Positions 1 through 12,046 of a stretch of DNA of 64,000 nucleotides are shown one piece after another; position 1 is the stretch's first letter, and every line of letters begins with the position of its first letter. This DNA is from Capsulimonadaceae bacterium (GTDB taxonomy: Bacteria; Armatimonadota; Armatimonadia; Armatimonadales; Capsulimonadaceae). Under the pieces are notes generated by a model. It made no database searches and was not told the origin of the DNA. It was given only the letters and a program-made list of their open reading frames with translations. The translations under genes were made by a program, and so were the position numbers. The stretch lies in assembly GCA_031292625.1 (NCBI GenBank), contig JARLGU010000003.1:1-64000 (forward strand). The letters are read 5' to 3'.

Positions 1-267
1 GCGGAGCGAATCTTCAAAGGATTCTCTCCGCCGGGTTGTGTCGCAAGCTGTTAAGTCGGAAGTTCCCGCGGCACGGACCCGCCGGAACGCCCTCCCTATC
101 CCCCCGATATTGTCAGCTTAAGTCGCCCAGTACGTCCTGAAGACTATTAAGCGGGCTATGGCTTTCGCTTTTTTTCGCGTAACCCATCCGCGCTTTGCGG
201 CTTCGCTGCGCTGCTCTCGCGAGATTGCCCGGCCTACATCGCCGTTACGGGCGAGGTTGCCGGTCGA
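1..267. other. Left edge, no intact gene seen
   Basis: No convincing reading frame, RNA gene or repeat was found here. The reading frame of the transposase remnant that follows has no good start codon, so this DNA may be sequence that replaced the 5' part of that gene, or the left flank of a deletion. Confidence 0.4.
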
Positions 268-864
268 TTGACCTGCAGAGCCCGTCGAGTGGTCGACGGA
301 TTCGAATTATGGAAGAAAGCCTGTGAAAACGGCGCAGAACTTCTCTGGCGCGTCAAGCGCAACATGCGACTGCCTTGCAACAAGCGCCTCGCCGACGGCT
401 CCTATCATTCGGCGATTTATCCGACCACAAAAGATCGCCGCAACCAGCGGGACGGCGTTGCCGTCCGCGTGATCGAATATTCGCTGACGCGTGCCCCGGA
501 CGCCGAAGGCGAAAAGATCTATCGCCTAATCACCACGCTGACTGATCACGAATCCTATCCGGCCCTAGAAATGGCCGCGATCTACGCCCACCGATGGGAA
601 ATCGAAATCGCGTTTGACGAGTTCAAAACCCACCTCGGCGGACGCGATCTGGTTCTACGCAGCAAGACGCCGGATGGTGTCCGTCAGGAGTTTTGGGGCT
701 TTATCATGGCGCATCATGCGATTCGCTCCATCATGCACGACGCCGCGGAGAAAGCCCAAATACCGCCAAATATCCTTTCGTATACCCACGCTCTTCTCGA
801 AATCCGACGCAAACTGCCGCAATTCCTGATTATTCCCCCCTCGGGCCTGGAAAGCCAGGTATGA
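268..864 (+). pseudogene. IS4-type transposase, 3' remnant
   Basis: The 198 codons encode only the C-terminal half of an IS4-type DDE transposase. The diagnostic Y-x2-R-x3-E-x6-K signature is intact (YAHRWEIEIAFDEFK, about residues 113-127), with E the third catalytic acid. IS4 enzymes are usually about 400 residues, and the part carrying the two catalytic aspartates is absent upstream. The frame opens at a TTG with no ribosome-binding site, so I read it as a 5'-truncated, inactive copy. No matching terminal repeats were found to delimit the element. It neighbours recombinase remnants, which fits a mobile-DNA accumulation zone. Confidence 0.8.
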
Positions 865-1059: not shown

Positions 1060-2841
1060 TCATTTGCCGACAGGTAGCTTTCCGGCCTTTATCAGGGCTG
1101 TATTAATCAATACTACGAGCTTGCCTTCGTCGAGGCTCGAACTCGTATAGTCCCACGCATGTCCGGCGATTACGCCATCGACGTCGATGACATAGATGGC
1201 TCCAAGATATTGGCGCATTATCTCATCTGGCTGCGACCAAACGTGAAAACCATCGCCTGCAGGGTTAATCCTTGCGTCAAGATGCAGTTGTAGCGGGGAG
1301 TCGTTGTTGTCGCTAATCCAGCGAAACTCAGGAGTGTTCCGTTTATAGATATTCGCTTGATCCAGTCCGAAATAGACAACGTCGCTCGAATAGTAGTCAA
1401 GCGCAAATAAGGAAAGACGCTTAATCACATCACTATGGTTCGAAAATAGCCGCGCGACAGGCCAAGTCACGACAACTTTCGCTCCGCGATAAGCACTGAT
1501 TTTGTCGACCGAGCCAGCCTGCATCTGACCCGTCGTCGCCATATCGCGTACGGAAGGGGAATTAGCCAATATATCCGGCGCCAGTGTTCCCGCAGCCATG
1601 ACGCCTTCGGGGACCTCTTCGTCCGGCGTAATCTCCGGCGAGCTCGGACGAGGCGATACGTTCGACGCGTGTGGAAGCGGGTCCAGAGTGAACGAAAGCG
1701 TTGGCGAATCCCCGCGTGCAAGTGTTACCCTCTTTGCCCCAGTCCGGTAGCCGGGGGCTGATACGTCAACTTCGACTGCCTTGACTTGCGACATGCCAAG
1801 GTCCACGCATACCGGTATGCCGACGCGGCCCGGTTGGCCGTCTACAATGATCGATGCATCAGGTGCATCGCACGAGACGGTTAGCGCTGCGGTTGTACTG
1901 ATGTCGGCGATGACCGGAGGATGTGTAGGCGCGGGAGTAGGCGCAAATCGCGCAAGCACCATCGCCCCAAGGGTAGCGCGACCATCAGGTGTTTGTACGG
2001 CATTCATTTTTGCAGCATACAAATGCACAGAGTATTGGACGTACTGCTTAAGGCTGTCGAATGTTACCGCGTTCTTCTCCGTGTCGGTTGCGTCGGGGTC
2101 ACCGGAAAGCCCCTTTATCAGATAATGCGTAAAGACGCCTTCTTTGAAATCCGCCGGGTCTCCTTCGAGGCTCGACTCGGTTGGAAGGCAGGACTGCAGT
2201 TCGGCGACTTCTGGACCAAGCGTTCCTTCGCCAATAGTCTGACCATAGCCGCTCGAACCAATACCCTTGCCAAGAAGATCTCGACAGGCATCAGTGATGA
2301 GCAAGACACGCTTGGGGTGCAAAGTATCCAGGCGCTGGCGAATTGCGGTAAAGTTGATACACGTGCTGAGAATATGGTTGCGATCAAAATCCTCCGGCAC
2401 CAGCCAGTCGGCATCTACACCAGAACCGTCTTTTCCGCGTGTGCCGTGGCCACTGTAGAAGAATATAACTTCACTCTTATCCGGCACGATACCCGTGTAA
2501 AGCGAATCCAGAGCGCTTTGAATATTACGCTCGGTAGGTCGAAGACCGGGATCGCCATTCGGGTCGTCGATCATCAATACAACGTTATCGAAGCCGAAGC
2601 GGCACTTCAGTAGCGCTGCGAAATTTCGAGCGTCGTTGCCGCTGGAATGCAGTCGCATTCCGCCGGGGTAGTCGCTCACACCGATGACGAGCGCATACTT
2701 GGCGTAACTGGGAGCAGAGGAGATCGGCGTTAGGATGATACGCTTGTCTGCCGTTTGCGCATGGGCCACAAGGGACGTGAGCGCTACTACCAGGGCGATG
2801 AGTGTGACGAACAGCGTAATATTATTTGAGCGCGGCAGCAT
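1060..2841 (-). CDS. Secreted caspase-family (C14) protease with PEGA-like domain
   Basis: This 593-residue protein begins with a signal peptide or anchor (residues 1-28, ending in AHA) followed by a caspase-like p20 domain (about 45-300). The catalytic dyad is visible: His132 in YSGHG and Cys186 in TDACRD. Residues about 320-385 (SIIVDGQPGRVG, then VSAPGYRTG) resemble a PEGA-type beta-sandwich. The last 160 residues are not recognised. I chose the ATG at 2841 over a TTG at 2862 because it leaves a clean signal peptide and has GGGAG about 12 bases upstream. Bacterial caspase homologues are usually arginine/lysine-specific peptidases; substrate and role here are unknown. It stands alone, between transposase and recombinase remnants. 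Confidence 0.85.
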   Translation of the reverse strand: MLPRSNNITLFVTLIALVVALTSLVAHAQTADKRIILTPISSAPSYAKYALVIGVSDYPGGMRLHSSGNDARNFAALLKCRFGFDNVVLMIDDPNGDPGLRPTERNIQSALDSLYTGIVPDKSEVIFFYSGHGTRGKDGSGVDADWLVPEDFDRNHILSTCINFTAIRQRLDTLHPKRVLLITDACRDLLGKGIGSSGYGQTIGEGTLGPEVAELQSCLPTESSLEGDPADFKEGVFTHYLIKGLSGDPDATDTEKNAVTFDSLKQYVQYSVHLYAAKMNAVQTPDGRATLGAMVLARFAPTPAPTHPPVIADISTTAALTVSCDAPDASIIVDGQPGRVGIPVCVDLGMSQVKAVEVDVSAPGYRTGAKRVTLARGDSPTLSFTLDPLPHASNVSPRPSSPEITPDEEVPEGVMAAGTLAPDILANSPSVRDMATTGQMQAGSVDKISAYRGAKVVVTWPVARLFSNHSDVIKRLSLFALDYYSSDVVYFGLDQANIYKRNTPEFRWISDNNDSPLQLHLDARINPAGDGFHVWSQPDEIMRQYLGAIYVIDVDGVIAGHAWDYTSSSLDEGKLVVLINTALIKAGKLPVGK

Positions 2842-2882
2842 GAGACATTCGCTCCCATTCAAATCGTTTGAGCTGACGGCAT

Positions 2883-2972: not shown

Positions 2973-3674
2973 AAAATCGAACCGGCGAGCCGTGCCCGAA
3001 AGCAGGCGGCATTTTCGGCGAACTTCGACTGGGCGATCCGCCAGGGAATAATGGATACCAACCCCGTCAAGGCGTTGCAGCGTGTTCATTTGGAACCGCC
3101 GCCGCCAAGGGGCATACCCCGCACCGAATTCAACGCGATCCTCGCGCACGTGAGGAGCAGCCGTGACCGACTGCTTTACCGTATGCTCTTCGAGTTGGGG
3201 TTGCGTATCTCGGAGGCGCTTGGCATCCGCGTCGAGGATATCGACTTAACCAAAGACGACGAGCATGTTCGCGTTTTAGGCAAGGGAAACCGAATACGAA
3301 CCCTACTGCTTGATGACCCCAGTCTGGTCAAGGAACTGCGCGCCCATATTCGCAGGAACGGATACAAGTATGGGCTGATCTTCCGAGCCGCAAAGAACGG
3401 CACTGGCAACGCCATGCGGTATCAGTCCGTTCACGAACTGTGAAGCAAGGCGTGCGATAGAGCGGGAGTCGCGGCAACCCTGCATCAATGCCGACATGCA
3501 CACGCAACCGAGTTGATTAATTCATCCGCCGCGAACGGTGCTCCAATTTCATTGGCGACCATTCGCAAACGCTTGGGTCATCGTCAAATTGCCTCAACCA
3601 TGCGGTACGCCGAGCTGTCCGACGAAAGCGCCGACACCGAACTGCGAGCACGGCGACGGCGGATGAAAGGGTGA
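2973..3674 (+). pseudogene. Tyrosine recombinase, 5'-truncated with in-frame stop
   Basis: The frame reads through FDWAIRQG and MDTNPVKALQRV, typical of the end of the N-terminal SAM-like domain of XerC/D-type integrases, then the catalytic domain: Arg in LGLRISEAL, then HQCRH (the H-x-x-R box), RKRLGHRQ and the nucleophile in MRYAELSD. A single in-frame TGA at 3441-3443, where relatives have Trp before SKA, interrupts it, and the same frame continues to the stop at 3672-3674. The N-terminal DNA-binding domain is mostly missing: the frame is open only from 2943. It is most likely a dead integrase left from an earlier insertion. Confidence 0.8.
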
Positions 3675-3691
3675 CTGCAATCCCTCATAGC

Positions 3692-3712
3692 CCCCGGCAC
3701 GCGCTGCCGGGG
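3692..3712 (+). terminator. GC-rich hairpin after recombinase remnant
   Basis: CCCCGGCA (3692-3699) pairs perfectly with TGCCGGGG (3705-3712) around a 5-base loop, just past the stop of the broken recombinase. There is no U-run, so termination is uncertain. Confidence 0.35.
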
Positions 3713-3950
3713 AACGGGGGGCGGGGGTACTTTGGAAAAGGGATGGTTAGAGTAGAACGGCTATCAGTCGCACCGTTGAATGCCTTGTGGGTGTCAGACG
3801 GCGGCGGGGACGCAGTGTCGAGGCTGTCAATGATGTTGACGAGAAAGGATACGAAACACGGCTCGACAATCAGTGGTATACTTGCGTTTGCGTACGATTG
3901 CAGGCACGCGTACCAGTCGCAAGAATTGGTGGGCGAGCAGAACAAATCAA

Positions 3951-5318
3951 ATGAACAAAACTGAATCACATGAAGACGGTTGCAAATGTGCAAGTGGATG
4001 CGCAATATGCGGGGATATGGCTCCCTTTGAACTTCCCTCTGAGCTGTATAGTGATTTCGTTCATTCTTCTGTGGTCATCTTTGCGGGGGCGGGAATAAGC
4101 ACTGAAAACCATCGGATATTCCCATCCACGTTGTACGAAAATATTTGTGCAGAGCTAAAACTAGATATTCAAAATGGTCTTCTATTCCCAGATGTTATGA
4201 CTCAGCTATGCAAACAGTCAAATGGTCGAGCTAAATTGCTGCGAAAAATCAAAGACCGTTTTGACTATGTTCGCTCCTTTCCCGAGCTTTACGGAATTTC
4301 CACGCGATTCCACAGAGAGTTATCAACACTTTTCCTTGTTGACACCATTGTTACAACTAACTGGGACTCGTTTTTCGAGGACGAGTGCGGGGCTCTGCCA
4401 TTTGTAACCGCAGACGACTACGCATTTTGGCAAAACTCAATCCGAAAAGTATTCAAAATTCACGGGTCCGAAAGTAGTTTTGGATCGATAGTGGCGACGC
4501 GAGAGGATTATGAGAAGTGCTATGAAAGGCTATCAACGGGTTTGTTGGGGGCGCATCTTAAGCTGATGATAGCAACGAAAACGGTGGTGTACATAGGTTT
4601 TTCATTTACGGACGATGATTTTATCCGCATCCACGATATTCTAAGCCGAGAAATGCACGGGATTAGACCACAAAGTTACATCGTCACACTTGACCGCAAG
4701 TCCGATAGTCGATTTCGCGAACTGGGGCTGATACCAATATACACCGACGGGACGCATTTCATTTCAGAAGTTAAAAAGAAATTGGTGGCGGATAATCTAA
4801 TGTTAGCGGATGAACGCTTTGACGACATTCCATATATGCTTCAAAAGGTATTCGAAGCGCATCGCGCTATCGGATCGATTAACAAGAAAGAGTTTCCTTC
4901 TGTCCTATATTGTGGTAGTTATCAAGACGGGTTAATGCATGCTTTCGAGCGCATGTTGGCATTACGTCGAACTGGCTACTATTCCCACACATGTAATGTA
5001 AGAAATGCCATTCAGAGTTATCAAGGCGATGATCTCAAAAAGAAGGTTGAAGGACGGAGATTCTTTGATGTAGCCTATGTTGAAGGCTACACCGACGGAA
5101 ATCTATACTTGCTTGCCGATAACGAGATGCGTCGTCATATGCCATTGTATTTTGCCTTTGGCTACAATAAGCCGATTCGAAGTCTAAAGGGTTTTGTTAA
5201 AGTTCTGGAGAAGTCGGCAAGCCTTGCACCTGAACAAAACGATATTGCTATCGCCATCCTAGAAAAGTATCAGGACGCAAATGGTATAGAGCTTCACCAT
5301 ACGCCATTTCTATCGTGA
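3951..5318 (+). CDS. SIR2-domain protein, probable defence NADase/deacetylase
   Basis: The 455-residue protein carries a SIR2-like NAD-binding domain: GAGIS (46-50), TTNWD (135-139, Asn137), catalytic-type His171 in KIHGSE, and IGFSFTDDDF (215-224). This pattern is that of the SIR2 and SIR2-like domains of anti-phage proteins, which deplete NAD on infection. A Cys-x-Cys-x3-Cys-x2-Cys cluster at the N-terminus (C11, C13, C17, C20) could bind a metal. Residues about 285-455 form a domain I do not recognise, possibly the sensor. The ATG at 3951 was chosen because upstream codons look unlike coding sequence. The gene is clearly more AT-rich than its surroundings and sits between two recombinase genes, so recent transfer is likely. 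Its end overlaps the convergent integrase by 25 bases. Confidence 0.8.
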   Translation: MNKTESHEDGCKCASGCAICGDMAPFELPSELYSDFVHSSVVIFAGAGISTENHRIFPSTLYENICAELKLDIQNGLLFPDVMTQLCKQSNGRAKLLRKIKDRFDYVRSFPELYGISTRFHRELSTLFLVDTIVTTNWDSFFEDECGALPFVTADDYAFWQNSIRKVFKIHGSESSFGSIVATREDYEKCYERLSTGLLGAHLKLMIATKTVVYIGFSFTDDDFIRIHDILSREMHGIRPQSYIVTLDRKSDSRFRELGLIPIYTDGTHFISEVKKKLVADNLMLADERFDDIPYMLQKVFEAHRAIGSINKKEFPSVLYCGSYQDGLMHAFERMLALRRTGYYSHTCNVRNAIQSYQGDDLKKKVEGRRFFDVAYVEGYTDGNLYLLADNEMRRHMPLYFAFGYNKPIRSLKGFVKVLEKSASLAPEQNDIAIAILEKYQDANGIELHHTPFLS

Positions 5319-6655
5319 AAAGGCCTCTTGTAATAATCGGAAAGGTTTGTGCATGTAGACACCATTGACACCCCCGCCATTGCCATATCTAATAGTCCAC
5401 TGTCTGTCAACGCTGTCAACGCATTTCGCTCTCCACGCCCCCACGATCCACGACCACGCCCCGCACCCGGCGTAGCCGCAAATCCCGCTACTCCACACCA
5501 TGACTTCGGTACCTTGTCTGCCTTAACGCGACGGACTTCGGCACGTGCTTCTTTAGCACATCGCGGCACACTTGCCGTGGGGCGGGCGACTGGGGCACCA
5601 CTGCTGACGGGCGTTGGTGGAGATACGGGTTCCTGCGGGGCTTGTGGGGCTTCCTGACGCTGGTATTGCGATGTGGCGAGCCCCACGAACCGCGATTCCC
5701 TGACGGCTAGCTGATCCACATGCAGGTAGTGGTTCAGCGTCGTGGTCGGCTTTGTGTGCCCGAGACGGGCGGCGACCGTCAGAATGTCCACGCCTTGCTG
5801 GAGGAGACGACACCCTGCAAGATGCTTGAGCCCGTGTGGTAACAGTCCTTTATCGTCGCCAAGCCCCGCTTGAATGGCATATCTTCGTATTTGGGCGCGG
5901 ATGTACTCGTCGGTTATCTTTTGCCGGGGACCGTGGCAAAAGAGCCGTTCATGCTGGCATCGTATCGGGCGATGCTTGAGCCACGCTTCTATTGCAGCAG
6001 CCGTTTCGGGCGTGAAGTAATAGGTTATTTTCGTCTTTCGTTTTCGACCTTTCGCCAAAGAACGAAAGCAACCAGATTCAAGGTCGAGGTCGGCAATATC
6101 TAACGTGCAGACTTCATCGACCCTGCACGCGGAATTGACGAGCACGTAGAGTATCGCAACATCCAACGCTCGTTCCTTGGCGACCGGATTCTTTTCCGCC
6201 TGTTCGATAAGACGCAAGACATTTGCGTCGGTCGAGACGGGACGAACCCCGGAACCATCCCGACTTGGAATGCTGACCGTTTCCGTTGGGTCGAAGTCGA
6301 GTACTCGCTTCTTCACGAGCCACCGGGCAAGTCCCGTGATCGGGTGCATCGCGGCTCGTACAGTATTCGCGCTTACGCAGGATGGCAAATCGCCCGTGGG
6401 GTGGCATATATTGCGTCGTTCGGGGGCACGGTGCTTGTGGTAACGGACGTATTCGTCGATGTTGTCGGGGCTGAAGTCGTCAATCGTCGGTTCGTCGATG
6501 CCGTATTCTACGCTCAGCCACTGGAACCAGCGCTTCATCCACGTGCGATAAGTGCGAAATCCGCTCAGGGAATGATCGTATCGGAAATCTTCGAGGTATC
6601 TCTCCGCGAGCGCCTTCAGCGGCAATTCGGCGAGCTTCGTAACGGGGCGTTCCAT
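5294..6655 (-). CDS. Tyrosine recombinase / integrase
   Basis: This 453-residue site-specific recombinase has an N-terminal SAM-like core-binding domain (about 12-120) and a catalytic domain (about 140-315) with Arg178 (ACRVDE), His274 and Lys277 (HGLKH), His300 (LGH) and nucleophile Tyr310 (LNHY). The second catalytic arginine of the H-x-x-R box is replaced by Lys277, which is unusual. Residues 320-453 are a Pro/Ala/Arg-rich tail absent from typical XerC/D. The gene lies beside three 21-bp direct repeats, an inverted tRNA fragment and a tRNA gene, so it probably mobilises, or once mobilised, the island holding the convergent SIR2 gene. Confidence 0.85.
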   Translation of the reverse strand: MERPVTKLAELPLKALAERYLEDFRYDHSLSGFRTYRTWMKRWFQWLSVEYGIDEPTIDDFSPDNIDEYVRYHKHRAPERRNICHPTGDLPSCVSANTVRAAMHPITGLARWLVKKRVLDFDPTETVSIPSRDGSGVRPVSTDANVLRLIEQAEKNPVAKERALDVAILYVLVNSACRVDEVCTLDIADLDLESGCFRSLAKGRKRKTKITYYFTPETAAAIEAWLKHRPIRCQHERLFCHGPRQKITDEYIRAQIRRYAIQAGLGDDKGLLPHGLKHLAGCRLLQQGVDILTVAARLGHTKPTTTLNHYLHVDQLAVRESRFVGLATSQYQRQEAPQAPQEPVSPPTPVSSGAPVARPTASVPRCAKEARAEVRRVKADKVPKSWCGVAGFAATPGAGRGRGSWGRGERNALTALTDSGLLDMAMAGVSMVSTCTNLSDYYKRPFHDRNGVW

Positions 6656-6693
6656 CTGCTAACCACCGATTAATGGTAGTCAGTCAATGCTTG

Positions 6694-6763
6694 TGGGCTC
6701 ATAGCTCAACGGTTGGAGCAGTCCCCAATCCGTTTAGAGCAGGAGAAAATCCGTACAGAGCAG
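6694..6763 (+). repeat. Inverted tRNA 5' fragment and three 21-bp direct repeats
   Basis: Bases 6694-6723 reproduce, with about two mismatches, the first 29 or so bases of the tRNA encoded on the opposite strand at 6864-6836. From its end runs a phased repeat: units ending GAGCAG at 6721, 6742 and 6763, exactly 21 bp apart, the last two also sharing AATCCGT. Their place between an integrase and a tRNA suggests recombinase arm or core sites, or a remnant attachment site. That role is inference. Confidence 0.55.
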
Positions 6764-6788
6764 ATACTCACACCGCAAACGGGGGAAA

Positions 6789-6864
6789 TGGTGGGCCCAG
6801 AGGGATTCGAACCCCCAACCAATCAGTTATGAGCCGACTGCTCTAACCGTTGAGCTATGGGCCC
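6789..6864 (-). tRNA. tRNA with CAT anticodon (Met, or Ile2)
   Basis: The 76-base minus-strand sequence folds as a full cloverleaf: acceptor GGGCCCA pairs with TGGGCCC, D-arm AGCTCAACGGTTAGAGC, anticodon loop CTCATAA, and T-arm GGGGGTTCGAATCCCTC (6814-6798). The 3' CCA is encoded at 6791-6789. A CAT anticodon is shared by elongator Met tRNA and by Ile2 tRNA that needs lysidine; I cannot separate them by eye. It is not an initiator: the three G-C pairs at the base of the anticodon stem are absent. Confidence 0.92.
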
Positions 6865-7796: not shown

Positions 7797-9215
7797 ATGT
7801 ACAACTGCAAATCGAAGGACGCAACCGAGTTTATTGACGATCAAGAGATCCTGGATACCCTGGAATACGCCCAAAAGAACAAGAACAACAGGGAACTGAT
7901 CGGCTCCATTCTCAAGCGCGCCAGAGACTGCAAGGGCCTTTCCCACCGCGAGGCGGCGGTCCTGCTGGACTGCGACCTGGTGGACCTCAACGAGCAGATG
8001 TATGCTCTAGCGCAAGAGATCAAGCAAGATTTCTACGGCAACCGCATCGTCATGTTCGCCCCCCTGTACCTTTCCAATTATTGCGTGAATGGTTGCGTCT
8101 ATTGTCCTTATCACGCCAAGAACAAGAATATTTCGCGGAAGAAACTCTCACAAGACGATATCGTTCGTGAAGTGGTTGCTTTGCAAGACCTTGGGCATAA
8201 GCGTCTCGCTCTTGAAGCGGGCGAAGATCCGGTCAACAACCCAATCGAATATATCCTGGAGAGCATCGAGACGGTTTACCGCATCAAGCATAAAAACGGC
8301 GCGATACGGCGCGTCAATGTCAACATCGCCGCCACAACGGTTGAGAACTACAGCAAACTGCGCGATGCCGGCATTGGCACCTATATTTTGTTCCAGGAGA
8401 CGTACAACAAGGCGAACTACGAAAGCCTCCATCCGACCGGCCCCAAGCACAACTATGCCTATCATACGGAGGCCATGGATCGCGCCATGGAGGGCGGCAT
8501 CGACGATGTCGGTATCGGCGTCCTGTTCGGTCTGAACATGTACCGCTATGATTTCGTCGGCCTGTTGATGCATGCGGAGCATTTGGAAGCCGCGATGGGC
8601 GTCGGGCCGCATACCATTAGCGTTCCGCGCATCTGTCCAGCCGAGGACATCGACCCCAAGAGCTTTAGCAATGCAATTTCAGACGATATATTCGCGAAGA
8701 TTGTAGCCGTCATCCGCATCTCTGTTCCGTATACGGGAATGATCATCTCAACTCGCGAATCGCAAAAATCGAGGGAACGCGTGCTCCACCTGGGCGTTTC
8801 TCAGATCAGCGGCGGATCGAGCACAAGCGTTGGAGGCTATGTTGAGCCGGAAGCGGAGGACGATAATTCCGCGCAATTTGAACGCAGCGATACGCGTACG
8901 TTGGACGAAATTGTAAGCTGGTTGCTCGATATGGGCTACATCCCGAGCTTTTGTACGGCATGTTATCGGGCAGGGCGAACGGGAGACCGTTTTATGAGCC
9001 TGGTAAAGTCAGGGCAAATTGCCAACTGTTGCCAGCCTAATGCGCTTATGACGCTAAGCGAATATCTGACGGATTATGCATCTCCGACGACCAGGTCAAA
9101 AGGCGAAGCCCTGATTGCAAGCGAGATTTCCCGCGTCCCGAACGAAAAGACGCGTGAGATTGCAAAACAAAACTTGATAGAAATATCGAAAGGCAAACGC
9201 GATTTCCGGTTTTGA
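7797..9215 (+). CDS. hydG: [FeFe]-hydrogenase maturase HydG, radical SAM tyrosine lyase
   Basis: HydG cleaves tyrosine with a radical-SAM [4Fe-4S] cluster to make the CO and CN ligands of the H-cluster. At 472 residues this is full length. The radical-SAM CX3CX2C motif is C96, C100, C103 (CVNGCVYC), preceded by the family-typical FAPLYLSNYC. The auxiliary-cluster cysteines are C386 and C389 (CTACYR) with C411/C412 (CCQPNA). GGAAG sits 8-12 bases upstream of the ATG. No hydE, hydF or hydA lies within the window, so it is an orphan here with only the TM1266-type regulator. Its codon use looks more AT-rich than its neighbours, hinting at transfer. Whether a hydrogenase exists elsewhere in the genome cannot be seen. 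Confidence 0.93.
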   Translation: MYNCKSKDATEFIDDQEILDTLEYAQKNKNNRELIGSILKRARDCKGLSHREAAVLLDCDLVDLNEQMYALAQEIKQDFYGNRIVMFAPLYLSNYCVNGCVYCPYHAKNKNISRKKLSQDDIVREVVALQDLGHKRLALEAGEDPVNNPIEYILESIETVYRIKHKNGAIRRVNVNIAATTVENYSKLRDAGIGTYILFQETYNKANYESLHPTGPKHNYAYHTEAMDRAMEGGIDDVGIGVLFGLNMYRYDFVGLLMHAEHLEAAMGVGPHTISVPRICPAEDIDPKSFSNAISDDIFAKIVAVIRISVPYTGMIISTRESQKSRERVLHLGVSQISGGSSTSVGGYVEPEAEDDNSAQFERSDTRTLDEIVSWLLDMGYIPSFCTACYRAGRTGDRFMSLVKSGQIANCCQPNALMTLSEYLTDYASPTTRSKGEALIASEISRVPNEKTREIAKQNLIEISKGKRDFRF

Positions 9216-9392: not shown

Positions 9393-11771
9393 CTATTTGG
9401 GGGTCGTCGACGAGGTCGAACTGCTCGCAGCAAGCGAGAGCGTCGAGGACGGAAGGCCTGGGGCCGATACGATCAGTTCGACCGCCCCGGTCTCACCGGC
9501 CAAAGAGCGCAGAACCACGAGCGCTCGGCCCCGATACGTTGCGTGCGTTGAGCTGCGGAAGCATGTGTGATTGCTCGGGTCCGGTGCCGCCATCGCAAAC
9601 AGCGCGGCCGAACCGGTCACTTCCGCGGTCACACTCACTGCGGCGTCCGGCACACGCAGGCCGTTTTCGTCCTCGATCGCGACATCGACGTGGGCGACAT
9701 CGTTGCCGTCGGCGGTCATGACGAGCGTGTCCGCCGTCAGCCGGATCCGGGCGGGAGCGCCTGCCGTGCGCAGTTCGTGCTCCGCGACGACGCGTCCCCC
9801 TATCTTGCCAATCGCCTTGAGGCAACCGGGCTCGAACGGCGCTTGCAGCGTATGAATCGGCGAACCGTCCGGGTTTGCGCGACTTACGCCCAACGTCCTC
9901 CCATTCAGCTCAATGTGGATCTCCTCGCAGTTCGAATAGCACACCACTTTGAGCGCCTCCACCCCTTCCCAATTCCAATGCGCGTGAACATCCGGCAGCG
10001 TCCAATCCACGTGCGGCGACGCTCCAGGTCTCTCGACCGCAAGGTAAACCGACGGCGCGCCCGACCAGATCGCACGATAGTAGTAGTAATGGGGCTTTGG
10101 GTAGCTGCAGAGGTCGATTGGCGACGAGACGCTTTGGATACGCGGCCAAGCCGCCTCGCCCAGGTAGTCATGTCCGGCCCAGATAAACTCGCCCGCGACC
10201 GCCGGGTTGTCCTTTACCGCACGCCAGTAGTCGAAATACTGATGCGTCTCGGTGCCAAGCAGCTTGCGCTGGGGATGGTCGCGGTGGATCGAGACATAGT
10301 AGTCCGGATACTTCCGGTGGACATAGTTGTAACCGGCGACGTCCAGCATATCCATTAAGCCGACTTGATTCGCCTCCCAGGCAAAATCGCATCCCATGGT
10401 AACCGGCCGCGTTGGGTCTTCCTCGCGCGTGATCTCAATGAGACGTTTAAGCTTGGGGAGCGCGCTTGGGCGGCCTTGCTCGGGGATCTCATTACCCACG
10501 CTGTAAATGACGATGCTTGGGTGACGCCGGTCCCGGCGGATCATAGTCCGCAGATCGGTCTCCGACCATTGATCGAAGTAAAGGTGATAACCAGCCTCGC
10601 ACTTCCCCCACGTTCCTTCGACCAATCCCGGCGTATAGCCTTCGGTCCACTCGTCAAACGCTTCGTCCATCACAAGAAAGCCCATCTCATCGCAGAAGTC
10701 GTAAACTTCCGCCGGAAAAGGGCAGTGACTGAGCCGCAGAGCGTTGCATCCCATGTCCTTGAGCAGACGCAATCGACGCCGCCACGTGCGTTCCGGAACC
10801 GCGGCGCCGATGCAACCGGCGTCATGATGCAGGCATACGCCCTTCAAGTGAGTCTTTACGCCGTTAAGCACAAAACCCTGATCGGCATCGAAGACGGCAG
10901 TCCGGATACCGAGCGGAAACGTCTGCTCGTCGACCACTGAAACGCCATCGCGCAGCGTGGTCCGTACGCGATAGAGGTACGGATTGGACGGCGACCAGAG
11001 GTTCGGGTTTGCAACCGCGAATTGCTCGGAGATCGTCGTCGCGGAATGCTCAAGCATCGCAAAGCGGCGGCTTTTCTCGGCGACAATCCGTCCGGCTGCA
11101 TCTTCAATGACCGTGGTAAGCGTGCACGAACAGGACGATGTTTCATCCTGGGTCTCGCTCTTCTGTCCCACGCGGATGGTTTCCGCAAACCTTGCGACCA
11201 TCACGCGGATCGCGACATCCACGGTTGCAAGCGCCGCCCCCTCGGAGAGCGACGCCGTCGCGATCGAGCATCCCCACGGATCGATATGCAAGACATTACG
11301 CTCGATCAACCAAACATGCCGGAAGATGCCGCTTCCCGAGTACCACCGGCTGTTCGGCTGCTTTGAGTTGTCGACACGCACCGCGATCACGTTCGCCGCG
11401 GAGTCCTTGGCGAGAAACGGGGTGATGTCATACTCGAAGGCCGAGTATCCATAAGGCCTGCGTCCGAGATAGCGCCCGTTGATCCAGACGTCGCTGTTCA
11501 TGTAGACGCCGTCGAAGTGGACGTAGTGCTTCTTGTCCGCGCTCGCCAGCGCCGTGAAGGACTTTCTGTACCAGCCGACGCCGGTCGGCAAAGATGCCGT
11601 CGCTCCCGTGTGGCTCGCGTCGAACTCTCCCTCGACGCTCCAATCGTGCGGCAAATCCACGATCCGCCAGGCGGAATCGTCGTACTCGGGGCGCGCGGCT
11701 CGCGAATCGTCGCCAAGAAAGAAGCGCCACTCATCTTCGAAATCACGATGGCGCAAATTGGGTGTCGTCAT
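9393..11771 (-). CDS. Glycoside hydrolase family 2, beta-galactosidase-like
   Basis: The 792-residue protein has the GH2 order: sugar-binding jelly roll (about 1-165, with GVGWYRK and SRWYSGSGIFRHVW), Ig-like domain (to about 295), TIM barrel (about 295-590) and C-terminal beta domains. The acid/base is Glu428 in SVGNEIPEQ and the nucleophile is Glu508 in LLGTETHQY. No signal peptide is evident, so a cytoplasmic beta-galactosidase or beta-glucuronidase acting on imported oligosaccharides is likely; the exact sugar is open. I start at 11771, where GAGT-free upstream codons stop resembling the family and AGGAT precedes the ATG; an in-frame start at 11867 would add 32 residues. It converges on hydG. 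Confidence 0.85.
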   Translation of the reverse strand: MTTPNLRHRDFEDEWRFFLGDDSRAARPEYDDSAWRIVDLPHDWSVEGEFDASHTGATASLPTGVGWYRKSFTALASADKKHYVHFDGVYMNSDVWINGRYLGRRPYGYSAFEYDITPFLAKDSAANVIAVRVDNSKQPNSRWYSGSGIFRHVWLIERNVLHIDPWGCSIATASLSEGAALATVDVAIRVMVARFAETIRVGQKSETQDETSSCSCTLTTVIEDAAGRIVAEKSRRFAMLEHSATTISEQFAVANPNLWSPSNPYLYRVRTTLRDGVSVVDEQTFPLGIRTAVFDADQGFVLNGVKTHLKGVCLHHDAGCIGAAVPERTWRRRLRLLKDMGCNALRLSHCPFPAEVYDFCDEMGFLVMDEAFDEWTEGYTPGLVEGTWGKCEAGYHLYFDQWSETDLRTMIRRDRRHPSIVIYSVGNEIPEQGRPSALPKLKRLIEITREEDPTRPVTMGCDFAWEANQVGLMDMLDVAGYNYVHRKYPDYYVSIHRDHPQRKLLGTETHQYFDYWRAVKDNPAVAGEFIWAGHDYLGEAAWPRIQSVSSPIDLCSYPKPHYYYYRAIWSGAPSVYLAVERPGASPHVDWTLPDVHAHWNWEGVEALKVVCYSNCEEIHIELNGRTLGVSRANPDGSPIHTLQAPFEPGCLKAIGKIGGRVVAEHELRTAGAPARIRLTADTLVMTADGNDVAHVDVAIEDENGLRVPDAAVSVTAEVTGSAALFAMAAPDPSNHTCFRSSTHATYRGRALVVLRSLAGETGAVELIVSAPGLPSSTLSLAASSSTSSTTPK

Positions 11772-12046
11772 AATAGTCCATCCTGCGGCAACCTCTAGCG
11801 ACCTTGCCACGCGCGGATCCCCGCTTACATGCAGAGGGCTCGATGCGGCAATGGCCGGCGTACTCACACACGTGACTTACTGGGTTAGCCCAGGTCAACT
11901 TCGCCAAGAAGCAGAAATTATCCCCCCGCACAAGACGCCAGAATTGAAATTAACTGAAATCTTTTCGCGCTCTTGCCAGCCCGGCATGATGCAGCGCCGC
12001 CGACGAGCACTCGTTGGCGGCGCCGGCATTCTCGATACGAAATACA

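Follow-up and report, generated by a model that had tools for sequence, protein, structure and literature searches.

The 455-aa protein encoded beside two tyrosine recombinases and a tRNA-Met gene in the window, by which the whole analysed stretch of 64,000 nucleotides is meant, is likely to be an anti-phage effector of the SIR2_2 (NADase) kind that acts as a single-gene system and is carried as cargo of a mobile element integrated at the tRNA-Met gene. This interpretation, drawn from sequence comparison and a structure model, is suggested by the SIR2 domain and its NADase residues, by the conserved ends of the protein and by the mobile setting of its copies in three unrelated places, as well as by the AT-rich character of the gene as cargo beside integrases and a tRNA. 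A role in phage defence had been proposed in an earlier sequence-only reading of the same DNA and is supported here as an inferred function. The gene and the parts of it that are discussed below are the following:

3951..5318, forward strand: gene of the SIR2_2 protein, 455 aa, with a Cys cluster, a SIR2 NADase-type domain (residues ~28-284) and a C-terminal domain (~285-455) modelled as helical
3981..4010, forward strand: codons of the Cys cluster, C11-K-C13-ASG-C17-AI-C20, defined in the alignment of three homologues
4803..5318, forward strand: C-terminal domain, residues 285-455, of no known family and conserved in three homologues

The open reading frame extends from 3873 to 5318 of the forward strand, and the start codon ATG at 3951 yields the 455-aa SIR2 protein. 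The description of the protein as AT-rich holds, as the gene has a GC content of 43.6% (0.436) compared to 58.1% (0.581) for the window; only ~0.1% of the 1368-bp stretches of the 64 kb window show a GC this low, with the lowest value located on the SIR2 gene itself. Two full-length relatives, with ~36% and ~45% identity to the protein, were found, resulting in a family of three members. The assignment as SIR2 protein is likewise sustained: SIR2_2 (PF13289) is matched with an E-value of 3.6e-17 and 63.2 bits against a curated cut-off of 24.5, and the glycine-rich motif GAG-x-S as well as the motifs TTNWD and KIHG are present. The best PADLOC model is ThsA (E 4.7e-20), covering residues 32-258 only, the nearest proteins in a sequence search of the PDB include ThsA, KomC, and DSR2, and a comparison of the three-member family profile with ThsA proteins by hhalign gave 99.1%, with the alignment confined to the SIR2 domain. 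An AlphaFold model, which was built from an input of 14 sequences and is usable for the SIR2 domain, has a mean pLDDT of 67 with mostly 70-90 in the SIR2 core, and Foldseek placed ThsA, KomC, and DSR2 on top (E ~1e-9 to 1e-7). TM-scores of ~0.6-0.7 were reached only where the target chain consists of the SIR2 domain alone, showing that the structural match concerns the SIR2 domain rather than the protein as a whole. NAD binding, for which the sequence-only reading had looked to a structure model, finds its counterpart in a SIR2/ThsA-type domain with invariant catalytic Asn and His residues: Asn137 and His171 are present in all 14 aligned SIR2 proteins (the alignment covering the three family members and 12 viral-contig SIR2 domains). 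These residues are the equivalents of Asn112 and His152 of ThsA, whose mutation abolishes NAD+ cleavage (PMC7272460). Since the residues needed by ThsA are matched, the protein is probably an NADase-type enzyme of the SIR2_2 group and would be expected to cleave NAD+, as judged from the sequence motifs and the modelled fold.

The relatives are located in mobile settings. The first, WP_176451518.1, annotated as "SIR2 family protein" and ~36% identical, is encoded on the mobilizable Corynebacterium glutamicum plasmid pCGR2, where it is flanked by the relaxase gene mobF and a gene for a type IIG restriction enzyme-methyltransferase; it carries the Cys motif and the C-terminal domain, and its C-terminus is longer than that of the window protein. 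The second was found with the pattern FxGAGxSTEN on IMGVR_UViG_3300033630_000034 (locus L058, 9797-11155), a contig that is viral by its label in the IMG/VR collection, and is 45% identical over 444 residues. It begins 83 bp downstream of a large serine recombinase (serine integrase), in a module that also holds a HTH regulator and an ImmA/IrrE-like gene. The viral SIR2 gene is followed at 11313-11972 of the forward strand by an ORF of at least 219 aa, which has a weak PHROG match with no function assigned there and matches neither Pfam nor PADLOC. Homologues in defence-type settings had been anticipated, and the plasmid copy beside the restriction-modification gene and the viral copy beside the serine integrase agree with this; a relative inside a dense defence island was not seen. 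Searches of 61, 291, 397, and 398 genomes, which are overlapping sets, revealed other SIR2 proteins only and no further full-length homologue. Phage records yielded no full-length match, degenerate-pattern scans of genome contigs no relative, and the patterns GSIVATxxDY and DTIxTTNWD nothing, and WhiB, sought as an actinobacterial handle for widening the homologue search, was not found either. The searched collections being limited, further members are probably present in RefSeq under the label "SIR2 family protein".

No partner gene recurs across the window, pCGR2, and the viral contig, which supports the proposal of a single-gene system; in the window, no neighbourhood of defence genes exists apart from a gene for a caspase-like protein with a hydrophobic N-terminus. 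The mobile setting also has to be considered for a different function, in which the protein would act as a toxin or addiction module stabilising the mobile element, or as an element-versus-element exclusion gene, rather than in host defence. Each of the three copies resides on a mobile element, with an integrase adjoining two of them and mobF the plasmid copy, as this function would suggest; however, a small antitoxin-like neighbour gene is not conserved, and we regard this alternative as rather unlikely. Element-carried defence and addiction or exclusion are compatible with each other.

The N-terminus bears the four-Cys cluster recognised earlier, with Cys11, Cys13, Cys17, and Cys20 all present. 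It is conserved in kind across the three homologues: the motif [CH]-x-C-x3-4-C-x2-C is common to all three full-length members, which read C-K-C-ASG-C-AI-C, H-K-C-EDNG-C-AS-C, and H-R-C-EDTL-C-EI-C. The swap of Cys and His at the first position fits zinc ligands and, by this sequence criterion, the motif likely binds zinc. Among the other kinds of SIR2 proteins of the viral contigs, whose predicted proteins were read from the start, the cluster was not seen. In canonical sirtuins zinc is held by four Cys residues, and the four Cys residues might accordingly be taken for the sirtuin zinc module of an NAD-dependent protein deacylase or ADP-ribosyltransferase with a housekeeping role. The canonical module is inserted in the small subdomain, while the cluster at residues 11-20 lies ahead of the SIR2/Rossmann domain and is therefore distinct from that module. 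Moreover, the domain belongs to SIR2_2, whose proteins, including ThsA and DSR2, are reported to be devoid of this module (PMC12700824), and none of 291 genomes of the phylum contains a full-length relative, which speaks against housekeeping; a sirtuin of this type is very improbable.

The C-terminal domain was unrecognised in the sequence-only reading and stays so, as comparison to Pfam, PADLOC, and PHROGs revealed no match of meaningful score. It is conserved in all three full-length members, which keep the motifs Y-[QN]-D-G-L, A-x2-R, G-x-Y-S, and D-x-A-Y-x2-G-Y-x-D-G, and AlphaFold models it as helical with low confidence (mean pLDDT ~37-74 per block). Among 72,556 plasmids the domain occurs only in pCGR2 and its copy, and a scan of viral contigs for the domain found nothing. 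By analogy to known effectors one may guess that it serves as a sensor.

The closest known system is Thoeris. ThsA (PDB 6lhx, 8bto, 7uxt, 8wc0) shares the SIR2_2 NADase domain and its motifs GAG-x-S, TTN-[WY]-D, and K-[IM]-H-G, and its size of ~480 aa and the order of effector followed by C-terminal domain resemble the 455-aa protein. In contrast to ThsA, the protein described here has an N-terminal Cys/His cluster and a C-terminal domain that is not SLOG; an identity with SLOG (STALD) was rejected by an hhalign probability of 0.1% against the ThsA alignment. The protein could nevertheless be the effector of a Thoeris-like multi-gene system with a partner encoded elsewhere, its C-terminal domain binding a nucleotide signal from a TIR-type or other enzyme. 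ThsA proteins are its nearest relatives by sequence, several of the SIR2 proteins from the genome searches are ThsA proteins with TIR neighbours, i.e., true Thoeris pairs, and contig C18 of the genome itself encodes a protein in which SIR2_2 is preceded by a fused TIR-like N-terminus. Against this, besides the domain not being SLOG, a TIR gene such as thsB adjoins the SIR2 gene in none of the three places (window, pCGR2, viral contig), and we consider such a multi-gene system unlikely. The fusion on C18 (locus L062, 1348-2760, reverse strand) is the second SIR2_2 protein of the genome; its N-terminus, KVFVSYSRKD, was recognised as TIR-like by eye and suggests a TIR-SIR2 fusion.

The single-gene effector preferred here also resembles DSR2 and DSR1, in which one gene encodes an N-terminal SIR2 domain and a sensor-like C-terminal part and whose SIR2 domain superposes. 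The DSR proteins have ~1000-1200 aa compared to 455 aa, the Dsr models match the SIR2 part alone, and the C-terminal part of ~170 aa is not detectably related. KomC of KomBC (PDB 8zsf, 9v0g, 9xvc) shares the SIR2 NADase domain (Foldseek E ~7e-9), but it is a 264-aa SIR2 protein solved with KomB, whereas the 455-aa protein has an extra C-terminal domain and no such partner was seen. With Nezha (SIR2-HerA) and SPARSA (SIR2 with short Argonaute) the protein has the logic of the SIR2 NADase effector in common; neither an adjacent HerA-like ORF nor an adjacent or fused short Argonaute is present in the window, pCGR2, or the viral contig. The layout of N-terminal motif, SIR2 domain, and C-terminal domain is not covered by the models searched, and a zinc-binding-like tip combined with a helical end domain is not seen in characterised SIR2 systems.

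The SIR2 gene is flanked by a dead tyrosine recombinase on one side and a full-length one on the other, with the tRNA-Met next to them, and its 3' end overlaps that of the convergent full-length recombinase gene by 25 bp. The surrounding features are:

1..864, forward strand: repeat whose first 133 bp recur at contig ends, holding an ORF recognised by eye as transposase-like (268-864)
1060..2862, reverse strand: caspase-like (Peptidase_C14) protein that also matches PEGA weakly and begins with a hydrophobic stretch
~2985..3674, forward strand: tyrosine recombinase pseudogene, N-terminally truncated, with one internal TGA at 3441-3443
5294..6655, reverse strand: full-length tyrosine recombinase, 453 aa (Phage_integrase E 6.9e-25; box II HGLKH)
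6692..6723, forward strand: inverted copy of the 5' part of tRNA-Met, 32 nt, 91%, between integrase and tRNA
6789..6864, reverse strand: tRNA-Met (CAT), 3' end towards the integrase

The first recombinase had been called dead, which is borne out: it is devoid of the N-terminal core-binding domain, and its frame is otherwise open at ~2985-3674. The other one had been called intact, and this stands for its length and family match, with a caveat for its active site, where box II reads HGLKH with Lys at the position of the expected catalytic Arg. Five other integrases of the same genome read HxLRH or HxFRH and a sixth HSMRH; the nearest in-genome relatives of the full-length recombinase, on contigs C25 and C6, have 32-34% identity and read HSLRH and HSMRH. 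Near the relative on C6 (locus L053, reverse strand, reverse-complement nt 308-1297) an ORF resembling ArdC-type antirestriction proteins was noted by eye. The location beside a tRNA is correct, and the tRNA-Met, with its 3' end facing the adjoining integrase, is the probable attachment site. The 32-nt copy was rejected as a second att site, being inverted and spanning the 5' part of the tRNA; behind it stand two AATCCG-like repeats that end in AGAGCAG, and the copy and the repeats together are possible arm sites of the recombinase. Just past the tRNA, at 7797-9215 of the forward strand, HydG is encoded, a maturase of the [FeFe]-hydrogenase H-cluster.

The earlier placement of an island at 2973-6864 is right in that the region is flanked by integrases, but these coordinates probably do not hold the whole element, as the contig starts at base 1 of the window and probable att remnants are found on another contig. 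Positions 1-133 recur without a mismatch where contig C20 ends and where C28 starts, and the repeat is also matched at the end of C65 (98% over 303 bp). The presence of the 133-bp repeat at several contig ends indicates that the assembly broke there and that the sequence ahead of the window may be C20 or C28. With the repeat at four contig ends, two contigs are possible as predecessors and two as successors, which helps scaffolding. C20 is the only contig on which decayed copies of the tRNA-Met region were found. They lie at 331258 and 328813, include ~25 bp of 3' flank, share the orientation of the tRNA-Met in the window and reach alignment scores of 46 and 36 compared to shuffle means of 8.4 and 9.1 (maxima 16); they are probable old attachment sites. 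In locus L033 (14740-17400, corresponding to 328.7-331.4 kb of C20) the two copies, ~2.4 kb apart, flank a gene resembling acyl-CoA synthetases, probably an older integration unit. Of the signs expected of an element integrated at a tRNA, the integrase adjoining the tRNA 3' end is present; flanking repeats of the tRNA end would depend on the probable link to C20, made via a repeat that also ends C28 and C65. The element probably reaches beyond the contig start, and C20 is the probable sequence joining it there. Most simply, this would be read as a series of tandem integrations accumulated at tRNA-Met and running from C20 into the window. The last unit, of ~7.5 kb, would comprise the transposase-like ORF, the caspase-like gene (PADLOC caspase model E 3.5e-11), and the SIR2 gene with its two flanking recombinases, the dead one and the integrase; the caspase-like gene thereby probably lies inside the same element as the SIR2 gene. 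One dead recombinase, Lys for the catalytic Arg in the other, and decayed att-like copies might be expected if the SIR2 gene were a decayed or silent passenger of an old, dying element. This is quite improbable given that the SIR2 frame is full length and that all catalytic and motif residues are kept compared to homologues at ~36-45% identity.

For the single-gene effector we propose that the C-terminal helical domain, alone or together with the zinc knuckle, would recognise an infection signal and/or control oligomer assembly, that upon activation the SIR2 domain would cleave NAD+, and that the infected cell would thereby stop and the phage die with the cell (abortive infection). More tentatively, the protein may represent a distinct class of single-gene immune sirtuins in which the N-terminal zinc knuckle and the new C-terminal helical domain together sense a phage product directly and trigger NAD+ destruction, and which moves with plasmids, proviruses, and elements integrated at tRNAs and defends the element against competing phages. 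SIR2 NADases form one of the main killing arms of bacterial immunity, and a relationship to the human FAM118 proteins has been reported for them (PMC12700824). Such a compact member encoded by one gene, having a likely zinc knuckle at a position other than that of the sirtuin module and a C-terminal domain outside known families, would contribute a sensor type that is testable with one gene. As C. glutamicum naturally carries a copy on a small plasmid, such testing is practical.
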